Shown here piece by piece: positions 37,954-41,995 of a stretch of DNA of 64,000 nt (position 1 is its first letter; every line of letters begins with the position of its first letter). Origin of the DNA: an uncultured Polaribacter sp. (GTDB lineage Bacteria; Bacteroidota; Bacteroidia; Flavobacteriales; Flavobacteriaceae); NCBI GenBank assembly GCA_943846595.1, contig OX044355.1, positions 930,001 to 994,000 on the forward strand, written 5' to 3'. Made by a program: the position numbers and the translations under genes. Under the pieces are notes generated by a model. That model was not told the origin of the DNA. It ran no database searches and saw only the letters and a list, made by a program, of their open reading frames with translations.

Positions 37954-39660
37954 TTAGAATGAAGGAGCCACTCTAAAACTCATTTTTTCATTTGTAGCAG
38001 GATGTGTAAAAGCAATAAATTCAGCATGTAAATGCAATCGATCTTGTTTTTTTCCATACAAATCATCGCCAACAATAGGAGCGTTTAAACCATTTTTATG
38101 GGCAGCATGAACTCTTAATTGGTGCGTTCTTCCTGTAATTGGGTAAAAATAAACACGCGTCTTGCCTTTTTCTCTTCGGATCACTTCCCAACGTGTTTCT
38201 GCATTTTTCCCATGTTCAAAACAAACCAATTGCTTGGGTCTGTCATCTAAATCGACCCGTAAAGGAAGCGTTATTTTTCCTTTGTCTTCAGTTAAATTTC
38301 CATCCAACAGCGCGACATATCTTTTTTGAATGCTTCTTTTTATAAACTGATTTTGTAAATGTTTATTTGCTTCTTTTGTTTTGGTAAGTAGTAAAATACC
38401 CGAAGTAGACATGTCGAGTCTGTGTACAATTAAAGGCCCTGTAGCATTGGGGTACTTTTCTTTGATCCGAGTAGATACAGCATCTGTAATTTCTTTGCCC
38501 GGTACCGATAAAAATTCTGCCGGTTTGTGAATCACCAAGAGCACATCATCTTCGTAGATGGTTTCTAGGGTTTTGTCATTCGAAATTTCTTTAATTAGCA
38601 AATTTTCGTCCATGGCAATTCCATCCAGCATATGATTCAAAATAGGTTTGCATCGCCCTTGACAAGCCGGATAGAAATTTTTATGTTTTCTAATGGCCGA
38701 ATTTGGAGAAATTCCCCACCAAAATTCCCCCATACAAAGAGGCGTTAAATCATTTTTAAATGCAAATTGCAGTAGTTTAGGAGCCGCACATTCTCCGGCA
38801 CCTGCTGGAGGTTTTATCGTTGGATTGCTAAAGATATCAAGAAGTGTTTTTGTTTCTTTTTTTTGATTTAAAAAGTCAAACTTCTCAAAAAGTGTTTTTT
38901 GCAGCAATGCAGAGGCTTCTTTTCTTGCTTTCTTTAAGGCGGCTATTTGCTCCTCAAAAGTAGTGAGTTCGCTGCGATTTTTTTCTTCTTTTTGAATATA
39001 ATAGGCAACCAGTTCTTTGTAGAAAAACTGATCGTTAAAACTTTCTTGTTCTAATTTTTGAGACAATTTTTCGAAGGCATCGTTTGTCAAGTTTTTCCGA
39101 GCCTCTTTTTTGCGAAGTTTTCGTTCTTTTTTAGAAATCGCCATTTTTTTTCGCTGAAGTGCTAAATCATCCTCAATTTTTTTGGAAGCTCTTTTCACAA
39201 CTCTCTTTACAAAAAGATAGGTTTCATCACTTTTTAATGCCGTTAACTTTGCATTAATAATATTGATTTGTTCTTCTCCTTTTTTATAAAAACTGTGCTT
39301 CGTTCTCAAGTCAAAAACGGGAGGAACAAATATTTCAGGACAACTTTCATCCGCTAATTTTCCAGAAAAAGCCACTAGATAGCCCAGTTGATTCGCGTTG
39401 TTTTTCACCACCAAAACCCCAAACATTTTACCGATGGCATTTTCTGTAGCGTTTGAATCGAGCCCAAAATTATGGGTAAAGTCTGTTTGAGTCGCCAAGT
39501 AGGCTTGTATCTCTTTTGTTGCAATTTCTACAAGTACATGCGGGGTGTAGTAAAATGGAAATGTGAACTTTTCTGGAAGTTCAATTTTTGAAATGGCTGT
39601 TTTAAAAAGTTGGAACTGCTTCAATGAATCGTTTTTTCTTTTATGAAATGGTTGCAACAA
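37954..39660 (-). CDS. RluA-family pseudouridine synthase with a long N-terminal extension
   Basis: The C-terminal 220 residues are an RluA-type pseudouridine synthase: IYEDDVLLVIHKPAEFLSVP, catalytic-aspartate motif LIVHRLDMSTSGILLLTKTK, and FYPITGRTHQLRVHAAH near the end. The first 340 residues are unlike E. coli RluA. They include a helical, very Lys/Glu-rich coiled coil (about 160-270, KKMAISKKERKLRKKEARKN) and the segment LCMGEFWWGISPNSA followed by YPACQGRCKPIL. The extension is shared, as I recall, by a flavobacterial subfamily; it may help bind rRNA. The target uridine is unknown. Its start overlaps the PLP-enzyme gene by 20 bp (39641-39660). Confidence 0.88.
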   Translation of the reverse strand: MLQPFHKRKNDSLKQFQLFKTAISKIELPEKFTFPFYYTPHVLVEIATKEIQAYLATQTDFTHNFGLDSNATENAIGKMFGVLVVKNNANQLGYLVAFSGKLADESCPEIFVPPVFDLRTKHSFYKKGEEQINIINAKLTALKSDETYLFVKRVVKRASKKIEDDLALQRKKMAISKKERKLRKKEARKNLTNDAFEKLSQKLEQESFNDQFFYKELVAYYIQKEEKNRSELTTFEEQIAALKKARKEASALLQKTLFEKFDFLNQKKETKTLLDIFSNPTIKPPAGAGECAAPKLLQFAFKNDLTPLCMGEFWWGISPNSAIRKHKNFYPACQGRCKPILNHMLDGIAMDENLLIKEISNDKTLETIYEDDVLLVIHKPAEFLSVPGKEITDAVSTRIKEKYPNATGPLIVHRLDMSTSGILLLTKTKEANKHLQNQFIKRSIQKRYVALLDGNLTEDKGKITLPLRVDLDDRPKQLVCFEHGKNAETRWEVIRREKGKTRVYFYPITGRTHQLRVHAAHKNGLNAPIVGDDLYGKKQDRLHLHAEFIAFTHPATNEKMSFRVAPSF

Positions 39661-41488
39661 ATGCTGAAAATATTTTTTTATGCAGTTCCAAATCCATGTT
39701 TGGAGATAGTGCTACCCGTGCAATATAATCTTTGTCACCTTCTTTGGTAGTTCCCTGTGTTGAGGTGGCAGGAATGGTCCAATACACTCCGTTTAACTGA
39801 CCGTAACTCACACAATACTTGCTTTCATTTGGAATTTCAGTAATCATTAACTGGATTAGTTGATGGTTCAACCTTCGTTTGTACTCCTCTCTTTTTTCTG
39901 CTGTCGCTCCTTTAGTTGGGAGGTCTAATGAAAAAACAGATGGGGTAAATCCTTGGTTTGCCAAGGCTTCAGAAACAAAATTAATTTTTGCTTCGGGAAA
40001 TGTTTCTTGAATGTAAGATACAAAAGCACGTGTATTCAGATAGGCGGCTTTAATTCTTTGATTCATAGAAGGCAATTGCTTTGCTAAGCGCTTCATTTGA
40101 AGTGCTGTGGCTTGGTTGTCGCAGATTTCCAAATGCAGTGCTATTTTTTTCATCAATGCATTGGTCTTGTGATTTCCCACACAATATCCAGCCGTACATT
40201 TTCCACCACTTGGAAACTTTGATCCACTAACATATGAAATTGTTCGCACTGAGGAAAGGATTTCATCTTTACCAAGAAAGCGCACATTGGGACAGAATGT
40301 TTGGTCTAAAATAAAAACGGGATCTATGGCCTTCATACCACTTTCTGTATTGCGTGTTGCGCTTAAAACAGCTTTCAATTTTAGTAAATCTGGAACTTCT
40401 ACGCGAGGGTTTGTTGGAATTTCTGCAATGATAAACGTTACTGCATCTTCTGTTGCAATTGCTTCTAAAACATGTTCAATGCTTTGCACCATGTCATTTT
40501 CACCATCTACGAGTAAATCCACGACCTCCACGTTTTTTAGACAGGCAGCAACGCGCCTTGCTTGGTCATTGGTACCTCCATAGCAGTTGGGAGGCACCAC
40601 AATTTTAATTGGCTTTCCAGGATGTGTATCCAATGCATCGTGCACCAATCCCATCATAATTGCATATTGAATCGAGAGCCCACTAGACCCTACTAAAGGT
40701 GTGGTGCTTGTTCCAGTAATTTTTTGAATCGCATCTAAAACCAGTGTTTTGTTGGCTTTGCAATCTGTTGTTTCAGTATCTAAATCTGCTTGTCCTACGA
40801 TACGTTTTAAAGCTGTAAGTGAATGGGCAGGTGTCATGGCAATGGTTTCTCTTCTCCGAACGTGCTGTATGGCTGAAATAGATGCTTCATTGTGAGCTCC
40901 ATTTATAGCCAAAATACTTCCGAGTTCCCCATAATTATGAATGACAAAATCACAGTTTTTATGAAATTCAAAAAGAGAAAGTTCTTGTTGTGCTGCAATG
41001 AAAACTGTACTTCCATCAAAAGGAGGAATGGCAGTGCTACTCTCCAACTGCTTTAATTCAAATTGATAGCCATATACCCGCGTTAGAACATCGGTATCTA
41101 AAAAGGAGGGGGGTGTCCCTGAATATAGAATTTGAGTTTTTTTATCTGCGAATGCATTGGTTCTTAGAATTGCCAAAATAGGCATTGTTTGTGACGAAAA
41201 ACTAATGACATTTTCTGATTTTAGGGTGTTCAATTTGGCAATACTCCATTCAAGTAGACAAGACAAAGGATGTCCCAACCGAATATAATCATAAGCTGTT
41301 GGTAATTTTTGAAGTGCTTTTGTATCTGAGTTTTTTGTGTTAAATAATACTTCAAACTGCTCTAAAAATTCAGCTTTTGCCAACGATTCATTATAAATAT
41401 CAAGGCGGTGAGTTGTTAAATCTAACCAGGCTGTTGGTATATTTTCTATGAGCGTTTCTAGATAATTTTTTATTGAATTTCCTTCCAT
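39641..41488 (-). CDS. Cys/Met-metabolism-type PLP-dependent enzyme, 615 aa
   Basis: The C-terminal two thirds (residues about 215-615) follow the cystathionine gamma-synthase/beta-lyase fold: GSSGLSIQYAIMMGLVHDAL, IKIVVPPNCYGGTNDQARRV, FIIAEIPTNPRVEVPDLLKL, ILDQTFCPN, and SYVSGSKFPSGGKCTAGYCV with the Schiff-base lysine in GSKFPSGGK. The N-terminal 210 residues are an extension not present in E. coli MetB/MetC (about 390 residues); yeast cystathionine gamma-synthase also has such a long form. The substrate cannot be assigned; a transsulfuration or C-S lyase activity is likely. Overlap with the rluA-like gene implies co-translation. Confidence 0.85.
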   Translation of the reverse strand: MEGNSIKNYLETLIENIPTAWLDLTTHRLDIYNESLAKAEFLEQFEVLFNTKNSDTKALQKLPTAYDYIRLGHPLSCLLEWSIAKLNTLKSENVISFSSQTMPILAILRTNAFADKKTQILYSGTPPSFLDTDVLTRVYGYQFELKQLESSTAIPPFDGSTVFIAAQQELSLFEFHKNCDFVIHNYGELGSILAINGAHNEASISAIQHVRRRETIAMTPAHSLTALKRIVGQADLDTETTDCKANKTLVLDAIQKITGTSTTPLVGSSGLSIQYAIMMGLVHDALDTHPGKPIKIVVPPNCYGGTNDQARRVAACLKNVEVVDLLVDGENDMVQSIEHVLEAIATEDAVTFIIAEIPTNPRVEVPDLLKLKAVLSATRNTESGMKAIDPVFILDQTFCPNVRFLGKDEILSSVRTISYVSGSKFPSGGKCTAGYCVGNHKTNALMKKIALHLEICDNQATALQMKRLAKQLPSMNQRIKAAYLNTRAFVSYIQETFPEAKINFVSEALANQGFTPSVFSLDLPTKGATAEKREEYKRRLNHQLIQLMITEIPNESKYCVSYGQLNGVYWTIPATSTQGTTKEGDKDYIARVALSPNMDLELHKKIFSAFVATIS

Positions 41489-41507
41489 AATTTCACATTA
41501 AAATCTG

Positions 41508-41530
41508 CGCGAAATATACATTAATTCGCG
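41508..41530. repeat. Short inverted repeat upstream of the PLP-enzyme gene
   Basis: CGCGAA (41508-41513) and TTCGCG (41525-41530) are perfect complements separated by 11 bp, and lie 20-42 bp before the PLP-enzyme start at 41488. It could be an operator; there is no other support. Confidence 0.3.
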
Positions 41531-41568
41531 GTATTTAAATCCTATTTATAAGAACGTTTTTGCAACAA

Positions 41569-41808
41569 TTAATCCACTTTTATGAGTTTTATTGTTTTGT
41601 TTTTAATTCTTAAGTAATAAATCCCTGTTGGAAAAGCTGACACATCTATTTGATTGTTCTCTGGGGTAAGTTCATTTTTTAATAGGCTTTGTCCCAGTGG
41701 TGAAAAGAGTTCGAAAAGAACCTTTTCGGTATTGTTAAAAGTGACGGTGTTTTTTGTTGGATTCGGAGAGTATCCAATTGCTTGCTCTGTAGGGTTTATG
41801 CCTAAGGC
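41569..41808 (-). pseudogene. Orphan T9SS type A sorting domain (gene remnant)
   Basis: In one minus-strand frame the 79 codons read as a complete T9SS C-terminal domain: INPTEQAIGYSPNPTKNTVT, then VLFELFSPLGQSLLKNELTP, then IDVSAFPTGIYYLRIKNK, ending TIKLIKVD and a stop. The PNP, PTGIYYL and final lysines are the type A signature. The frame is closed by a TAG immediately upstream (41809-41811), has no start codon, and no cargo domain precedes it. It is therefore the 3' remnant of a lost secreted-protein gene, now abutting a truncated small gene. Confidence 0.85.
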
Positions 41809-41995
41809 CTAAAATTAAATTGCAATTGCGAGGTTTTATAAAAGCGACTTGAGACAAATCCAATGGTTGTTGCTTCTCGATAATGAATTCTATAAGAAGT
41901 GCTCTAAAATGAATGGCTTCCGCCATGTTGAAGTTGTACAGTCGAACAACATGCTCCTCCAATCCATTTACGTTTTCGATATAATCTAATTCCAT
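41735..41995 (-). pseudogene. Small conserved gene downstream of polA, truncated and joined to a T9SS remnant
   Basis: The frame codes for 86 residues. Residues 1-64 (MELDYIENVNGLEEHVVRLY to KPRNCNLILGL) resemble a small flavobacterial family of about 95-100 residues that I recall next to polA. Residues 65-86 are simply the T9SS remnant read out of frame, so the natural C-terminus is missing. The start lies 12 bp after the polA stop on the same strand. Whether the 86-residue hybrid is made or functional is unknown. Confidence 0.65.

Follow-up and report, generated by a model that had tools for sequence, protein, structure and literature searches.

Downstream of polA in an uncultured Polaribacter sp. 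(genome G000), a short open reading frame is followed, in another frame, by a sorting domain of the type IX secretion system (T9SS), and the question is what this pair of sequences represents. The locus lies in a stretch of 64,000 nucleotides, called the window here, and the genes labelled in it are on the minus strand. The pair is an ordinary relic of gene loss and not a new kind of protein. As judged from the sequences of related genomes, it is very probably a deletion scar, in which the 5' half of a small gene has been joined to the T9SS tail of a lost secreted hydrolase gene.

The small gene and the sorting domain beside polA

An ATG at 41995, 11 bases past the polA stop, opens an 86-codon reading frame that closes at 41735. 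In the second frame, an in-frame TAG at 41811-41809 precedes 79 open codons of a T9SS domain. The minus strand carries the hexamer TTAGGC twice (41812-41807 and 41805-41800; GCCTAA on the plus strand). All of these letters and positions agree with an earlier note on this DNA. The first 63 codons of the 86-codon frame match a conserved protein and the remaining codons do not; the window does not hold residues 1-126 of that protein in one frame, having instead 63 codons followed by 23 foreign ones. The features are collected in Table 1.

Table 1. Features of the interval between polA and the PLP-dependent enzyme gene in the window
Feature	Positions	Strand	Observations
polA, 946 aa	42007..44847	minus	Intact left flank; collinear with four relatives at 89-94% DNA identity
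Small-gene remnant, codons 1-63 of 126	41807..41995	minus	Similarity to the G019 and G168 copies
Chimeric ORF, 86 codons (63 native, 23 out of frame in the T9SS region)	41735..41995	minus	
Putative deletion joint	41806..41808	minus	Base-by-base comparison; GC at 41808-41807 fits both G019 templates
Orphan T9SS type A sorting domain, probably the 79 terminal codons of a PETase-family hydrolase gene now lost	41572..41808	minus	Followed by TAA at 41571-41569
PLP-dependent Cys/Met-metabolism-like gene, 615 aa	39641..41488	minus	Intact right flank

The 79-codon frame is placed among the T9SS sorting domains by profile, with scores above the curated cut-offs and a match at the end of the reading frame. 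It matched PF18962 (Por_Secre_tail) with an E-value of 2.8e-10 and 40.8 bits (cut-off 27), and TIGR04183 with an E-value of 4.9e-12 and 45.7 bits (cut-off 23), the latter match reaching residue 77 of 79. The role of such a tail is that of a C-terminal signal for secretion of a hydrolase via the type IX system. The frame starts directly past the TAG, contains no ATG or TTG, has GTG only at codons 56 and 78 and bears no secreted cargo with a signal peptide. The earlier note had described a complete 79-codon type A domain in another frame without cargo or start, and the two profile matches and the missing ATG and TTG bear this out. On these sequence features, the tail is a remnant and not a working T9SS substrate.

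The best match to the tail outside the present genome was found in G019 (76% identity, within a 380-codon frame) in a search of 58 genomes of the genus, a sample to which G139, G147 and G168 do not belong. At the DNA level, the nearest tails are those of G147 and G168, each 95% identical. The present genome holds 26 other Por_Secre_tail matches, 25 of them above the cut-off. Searched as DNA, the tail gave seven other matches in this genome at E-values up to 1, the best being 41 bp at 84%, and none of the seven lies inside any of the 26 other tails (40 of 53 candidates scored). The earlier suggestion that T9SS domains may serve as recombination targets finds no footing in these matches, and the left end of the joint is not a T9SS gene. 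Three further T9SS tails were seen in short open frames of 106, 107 and 162 codons (G000:C1:1145731-1145919, 1221906-1222130 and 112015-112212), and are possible further remnants.

The small gene belongs to a family that is common in the genus. Residues 1-63 of the window frame are 83% identical to the G019 protein, and residues 1-64 are 91% identical to the copy on the G168 contig. Matches at E-values up to 1e-5 were found in 79 of the 166 genus genomes searched, each species contributing a single genome, and in 76 of these 79 they cover residues 1-124 or more; the exceptions are the present genome, G147 and G025. Two of the 76 (G004 and G013) are each listed with one internal stop in the gene. 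The intact protein has 124-126 residues, so that about 62 are absent past the cut in the window, twice the roughly 30 that had been expected before. The 86-residue form, which in relatives would have spoken for a genuine protein, occurs in no other of the 79 matching genomes. An alignment of 19 relatives, hand-picked from 43 loci, has 126 columns; of the 31 invariant ones, 15 precede the cut and 16 follow it. In a predicted model of the protein (mean pLDDT 82.5), the cut falls at the end of a strand formed by residues 59-64, in the middle of the fold. The small protein had no Pfam or NCBIfam match at E-values up to 0.1, no PDB sequence match at E-values up to 1 and no significant match among solved folds (best Foldseek E-value 0.15). 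Two variants were observed in other lineages. In G095, a partial second copy comprising residues 57-118 lies about 3 kb downstream of the intact one (G095:C2:203316-203501, locus L165), and in G025 the gene is frameshifted near codon 64 (G025:C24:34415-34788, locus L166).

Comparison with the intact locus in relatives

Both parents of the fusion are intact, ordered and collinear in G019. The order there is polA, the small gene, a sodium/solute symporter gene, a PETase-family hydrolase gene with a T9SS tail and the PLP gene; the small gene and the hydrolase gene are on the same contig and strand, the small gene starting 3.7 kb upstream. The earlier note had proposed comparing the polA-PLP interval of relatives for a full T9SS gene, and G019 supplies one in this whole T9SS-tailed hydrolase. 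The window aligns with G019 at 88% identity over 3,833 columns to the left of the joint and at 84% over 5,814 columns to the right of it, and is by calculation 3,562 bp shorter, the shared GC counted. In G019, the missing DNA takes in the small gene's second half, continues through an open frame of 94 codons (DUF6688_C match) and the symporter gene (497 residues; PF00474, E-value 1.9e-75), and reaches into the hydrolase gene, whose first 286 codons it includes. Since the 94-codon frame and the symporter gene lie between the two genes in G019, more than two genes were probably hit by the deletion. The earlier proposal, that a secreted-protein gene had followed the small gene and that a deletion took the 3' part of the small gene and almost the whole of its neighbour, holds in its outline, with the addition that the symporter gene would also have been lost if the ancestor resembled G019.

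The extent of the loss depends on that ancestor. In G168, the same two points are about 16.4 kb apart by calculation, with other genes between them. Judged from these two arrangements, the deletion would measure 3,562 bp if the ancestor was G019-like and about 16.4 kb if it was G168-like. The interval in G168 (locus L164, G168:C5:17000-36000) contains about 15 kb of genes between the small gene and the hydrolase gene that are absent at the same place in G019.

The repeat at the joint had been put forward as the microhomology of the deletion. The repeat is there; codons 62-63 of the small gene make up its first copy, and the second draws its TTAGG from a CCTTAGG in the hydrolase gene. Slippage between the two copies would leave only one. 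Both survive, one native to each gene, and the repeat is therefore not the recombining homology. When the joint is compared with the two G019 templates, the only shared bases are GC.

The proposed course of events starts from an ancestor in which polA and the 126-codon gene were followed by other genes, by a gene for a secreted alpha/beta hydrolase of the PETase family with a T9SS end, and by the PLP gene. The comparison of genomes shows the outcome of an illegitimate deletion: codon 63 of the small gene now runs into the 79 terminal codons of the hydrolase gene, the homology at the joint being slight or absent (GC). The intervening DNA was removed in one or more steps. The remnants probably are still open because the loss is recent.

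An assembler could in principle have made the joint, with the chromosome still holding the missing segment. The genome is a single contig of 2,314,258 bases for which the assembly method is not stated, which leaves some room for such an error. The flanks, however, are collinear with four other assemblies, and G147, which was assembled separately, likewise lacks the 3' half of the small gene. Two bases shared with G019 at the joint would also seem too few for an assembler to collapse. Moreover, searches of the assembly did not recover the missing DNA at another place: the best match to the C-terminal half of the small gene in this genome had an E-value of 0.07, and the segment deleted relative to G019 gave 17 short matches (18-99 bp), 40 of 77 candidates having been scored. 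An artefact is thus very improbable.

Relocation of the lost segment to 1.588 Mb in the present genome was considered and rejected. A 1.3-kb stretch of the G168 interval, downstream of the small gene, recurs at G000:C1:1587380-1588639; it looks like a variable insert there, since G139, G147 and G019 are continuous at this site. A separate repeat of about 70-125 bp was seen directly after the small gene, both in G019 (locus L059, 4174-4296) and in G168 (locus L164, reverse complement, 2128-2282), and also at G147:C11:442019-442115 and weakly (75%) at G000:C1:1710116-1710214. It is possibly an interspersed element.

Erosion of the polA-PLP interval

Five related genomes have five arrangements of the polA-PLP interval. 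In G019, the small gene, the symporter gene and the hydrolase gene are all whole. In G168, the small gene and the hydrolase gene are whole, with other genes between them. In G139, the small gene is cut near codon 13 and fused to the symporter gene near codon 397, and the hydrolase gene is whole. In G147, the cut in the small gene follows TTTTAGG, codon 20 is a stop, and the hydrolase gene is again whole. In the present genome, the small gene is cut at the same place as in G147 and the hydrolase gene is reduced to its tail. Among these five genomes, the small gene has been hit by no fewer than three distinct pairs of deletion ends. By this sequence comparison, the interval erodes in parallel: in G139 and G147, too, the end of the small gene has gone, in each through a different deletion.

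A tree built from PolA, RluA and CBM (a working label for an 877-residue protein beyond RluA, with no family search behind the name) gave the order (((G000,G147),G168),G139),G019 with 99-100% support. The grouping of G000 with G147 received 100% support with the three proteins and 55% with CBM alone. The left breakpoints of these two sister genomes agree within a base or two and their right ends differ. From one random deletion such agreement would not be expected. Agreement within one base would arise by chance in about 3 of 381 cases (about 1%), a post hoc calculation that assumes a uniform distribution over the 381-bp gene.

This agreement bears on the number of steps. The common ancestor of G000 and G147 may have lost the DNA from codon 63 to the start of the hydrolase gene, the state still seen in G147, and G000 may later have lost the body of the hydrolase gene. 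The sister relationship and the common left breakpoint are in favour of such a sequence, as is CAA at codon 42 in both genomes as opposed to AAA in G168 and G019. Against it, a shared first step leaves the coincidence in place, because the second deletion must again begin at the identical base; also, a direct join from an intact gene accounts for the GC overlap slightly better than one from the G147 joint. Two successive losses are therefore a tentative reading, somewhat less than evenly probable. They would alter the number of steps and not the nature of the scar, and are compatible with the deletion scar preferred here.

We cannot explain the shared left breakpoint other than by chance or by a break-prone site. 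As different deletions in the sister genomes start at TTTTAGG|, codon 63 of the small gene could be a recurrent break point of the chromosome in this clade, which we consider unlikely. If it were so, something at the codon-63 site, be it a nuclease target, an obstacle to replication or an element since lost, would break it repeatedly. The breakpoint in G147 and G000, the partial copy in G095 and the frameshift near codon 64 in G025 prompted the idea that an integrative element has its attachment site inside the small gene. Inspection by eye revealed no recognisable integrase among the ORFs of the G168 interval or of the G095 locus, and the idea was set aside as an explanation but stands as a weak lead.

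Remnants of the small gene were also sought in genomes that lack it. By calculation, 82 genus genomes have a polA match and no small-gene match at E-values up to 1e-5. The regions downstream of polA were taken from 73 of them (1.5 kb each, two shorter), three (G139, G127 and G097) were viewed separately and six have no listed coordinates. The 73 loci contained no convincing remnant: the single tblastn hit (E-value 0.064) was antisense, and 19 blastn hits of 17-70 bp were taken as chance, including the best of them (E-value 2.2e-4, locus L184), since 63 queries were used.

Between about 200 and 2,400 bases to the right of the joint (the PLP gene; window about 39400-41610, minus strand), the identity of G000 and G147 is 97.5-99.5%; beyond, it is 91-97.5%. 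The more similar stretch looks like a recent recombination tract.

The remnants, the lost hydrolase and known systems

Both remnants are probably without function, since the cut breaks the small protein's predicted fold and the tail lacks a signal peptide, a catalytic domain and a start. Neither has acquired a stop or frameshift of its own in the present genome. Changes private to this genome number three replacement and three silent in the two remnants, compared with five and 36 in polA (Fisher p 0.053); the G147 small-gene remnant gave p 0.31 in the codon-change comparison. The intact G168 copies have four replacement and no silent changes in the small gene and four of each in the tail. These intact copies look no more constrained, and the ratio therefore says nothing about decay.

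The joint might alternatively be expressed as one protein, with +1 frameshifting at CTT AGG C linking residues 1-64 to the T9SS tail. This heptamer, in frame at 41806-41800, is spelled like the +1 frameshift site of yeast Ty1, its phase leads into the T9SS frame, and AGG is rare in the long ORFs of the window (28 of 14,635 codons). Nevertheless, CCTTAGG is native to the hydrolase gene of G019, which makes the heptamer a by-product of the joint; the product would lack a signal peptide and should not be received by the T9SS, and the predicted fold of the small protein would be cut. Expression by frameshifting is hardly credible on this evidence, and the deletion scar remains the preferred reading.

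The lost gene can be named from its relatives. The hydrolase gene and its tail are without stops in G019, G139, G147 and G168, with the PLP gene directly after. The G019 enzyme has 365 residues and contains PF12740 (PETase, E-value 3e-56) and PF18962 in the same protein. Its best PDB match was 7pzj (E-value 2.3e-153), presumably PET30 of Kaistella jeonii, aligned over residues 1-363 with the T9SS tail included. The NCBIfam model for BHET hydrolase gave 142.7 bits, far under its curated cut-off of 520. Hydrolase matches at E-values up to 1e-30 occur in 11 of 166 genus genomes. The hydrolase body has no match at this threshold in the present genome, and the catalytic domain is absent at the joint. 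By sequence, the lost cargo resembles PET30, a polyester hydrolase.

The locus documents gene loss at base resolution, and the gene lost is one that close relatives keep, a T9SS-tailed PETase-family hydrolase gene. It also holds a caution for annotators: the 86-residue ORF is a chimera, and a sorting domain that stands alone can be a relic. The polA-PLP interval, a natural series on a small scale, could serve to study the erosion of neighbouring genes in this group.

Compared with known systems, the feature is the same as other deletion-fusion pseudogenes, in which two truncated frames are fused out of frame and the parents are whole and collinear in a relative. There is no difference of principle, although it is unusual that a sister genome uses the left breakpoint again. 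Residues 1-63 belong to the uncharacterised 126-residue protein that follows polA in the genus, whereas the second half of that protein is absent in the window. For the T9SS-secreted enzymes, a published report describes PET27-PET30 and PET38 as bearing a PorC/T9SS C-terminal part, and PET30 as having a T9SS/PorC tail, its crystal structure having been solved for the enzyme without that tail (PMC8767016). The lost gene, as preserved in G019, is alike to PET30 (Kaistella jeonii) and PET27 (Aequorivita), T9SS-secreted PETase-family esterases. In contrast to these, the window keeps the sorting domain only, and the intact enzymes of its relatives are known here by their sequences.
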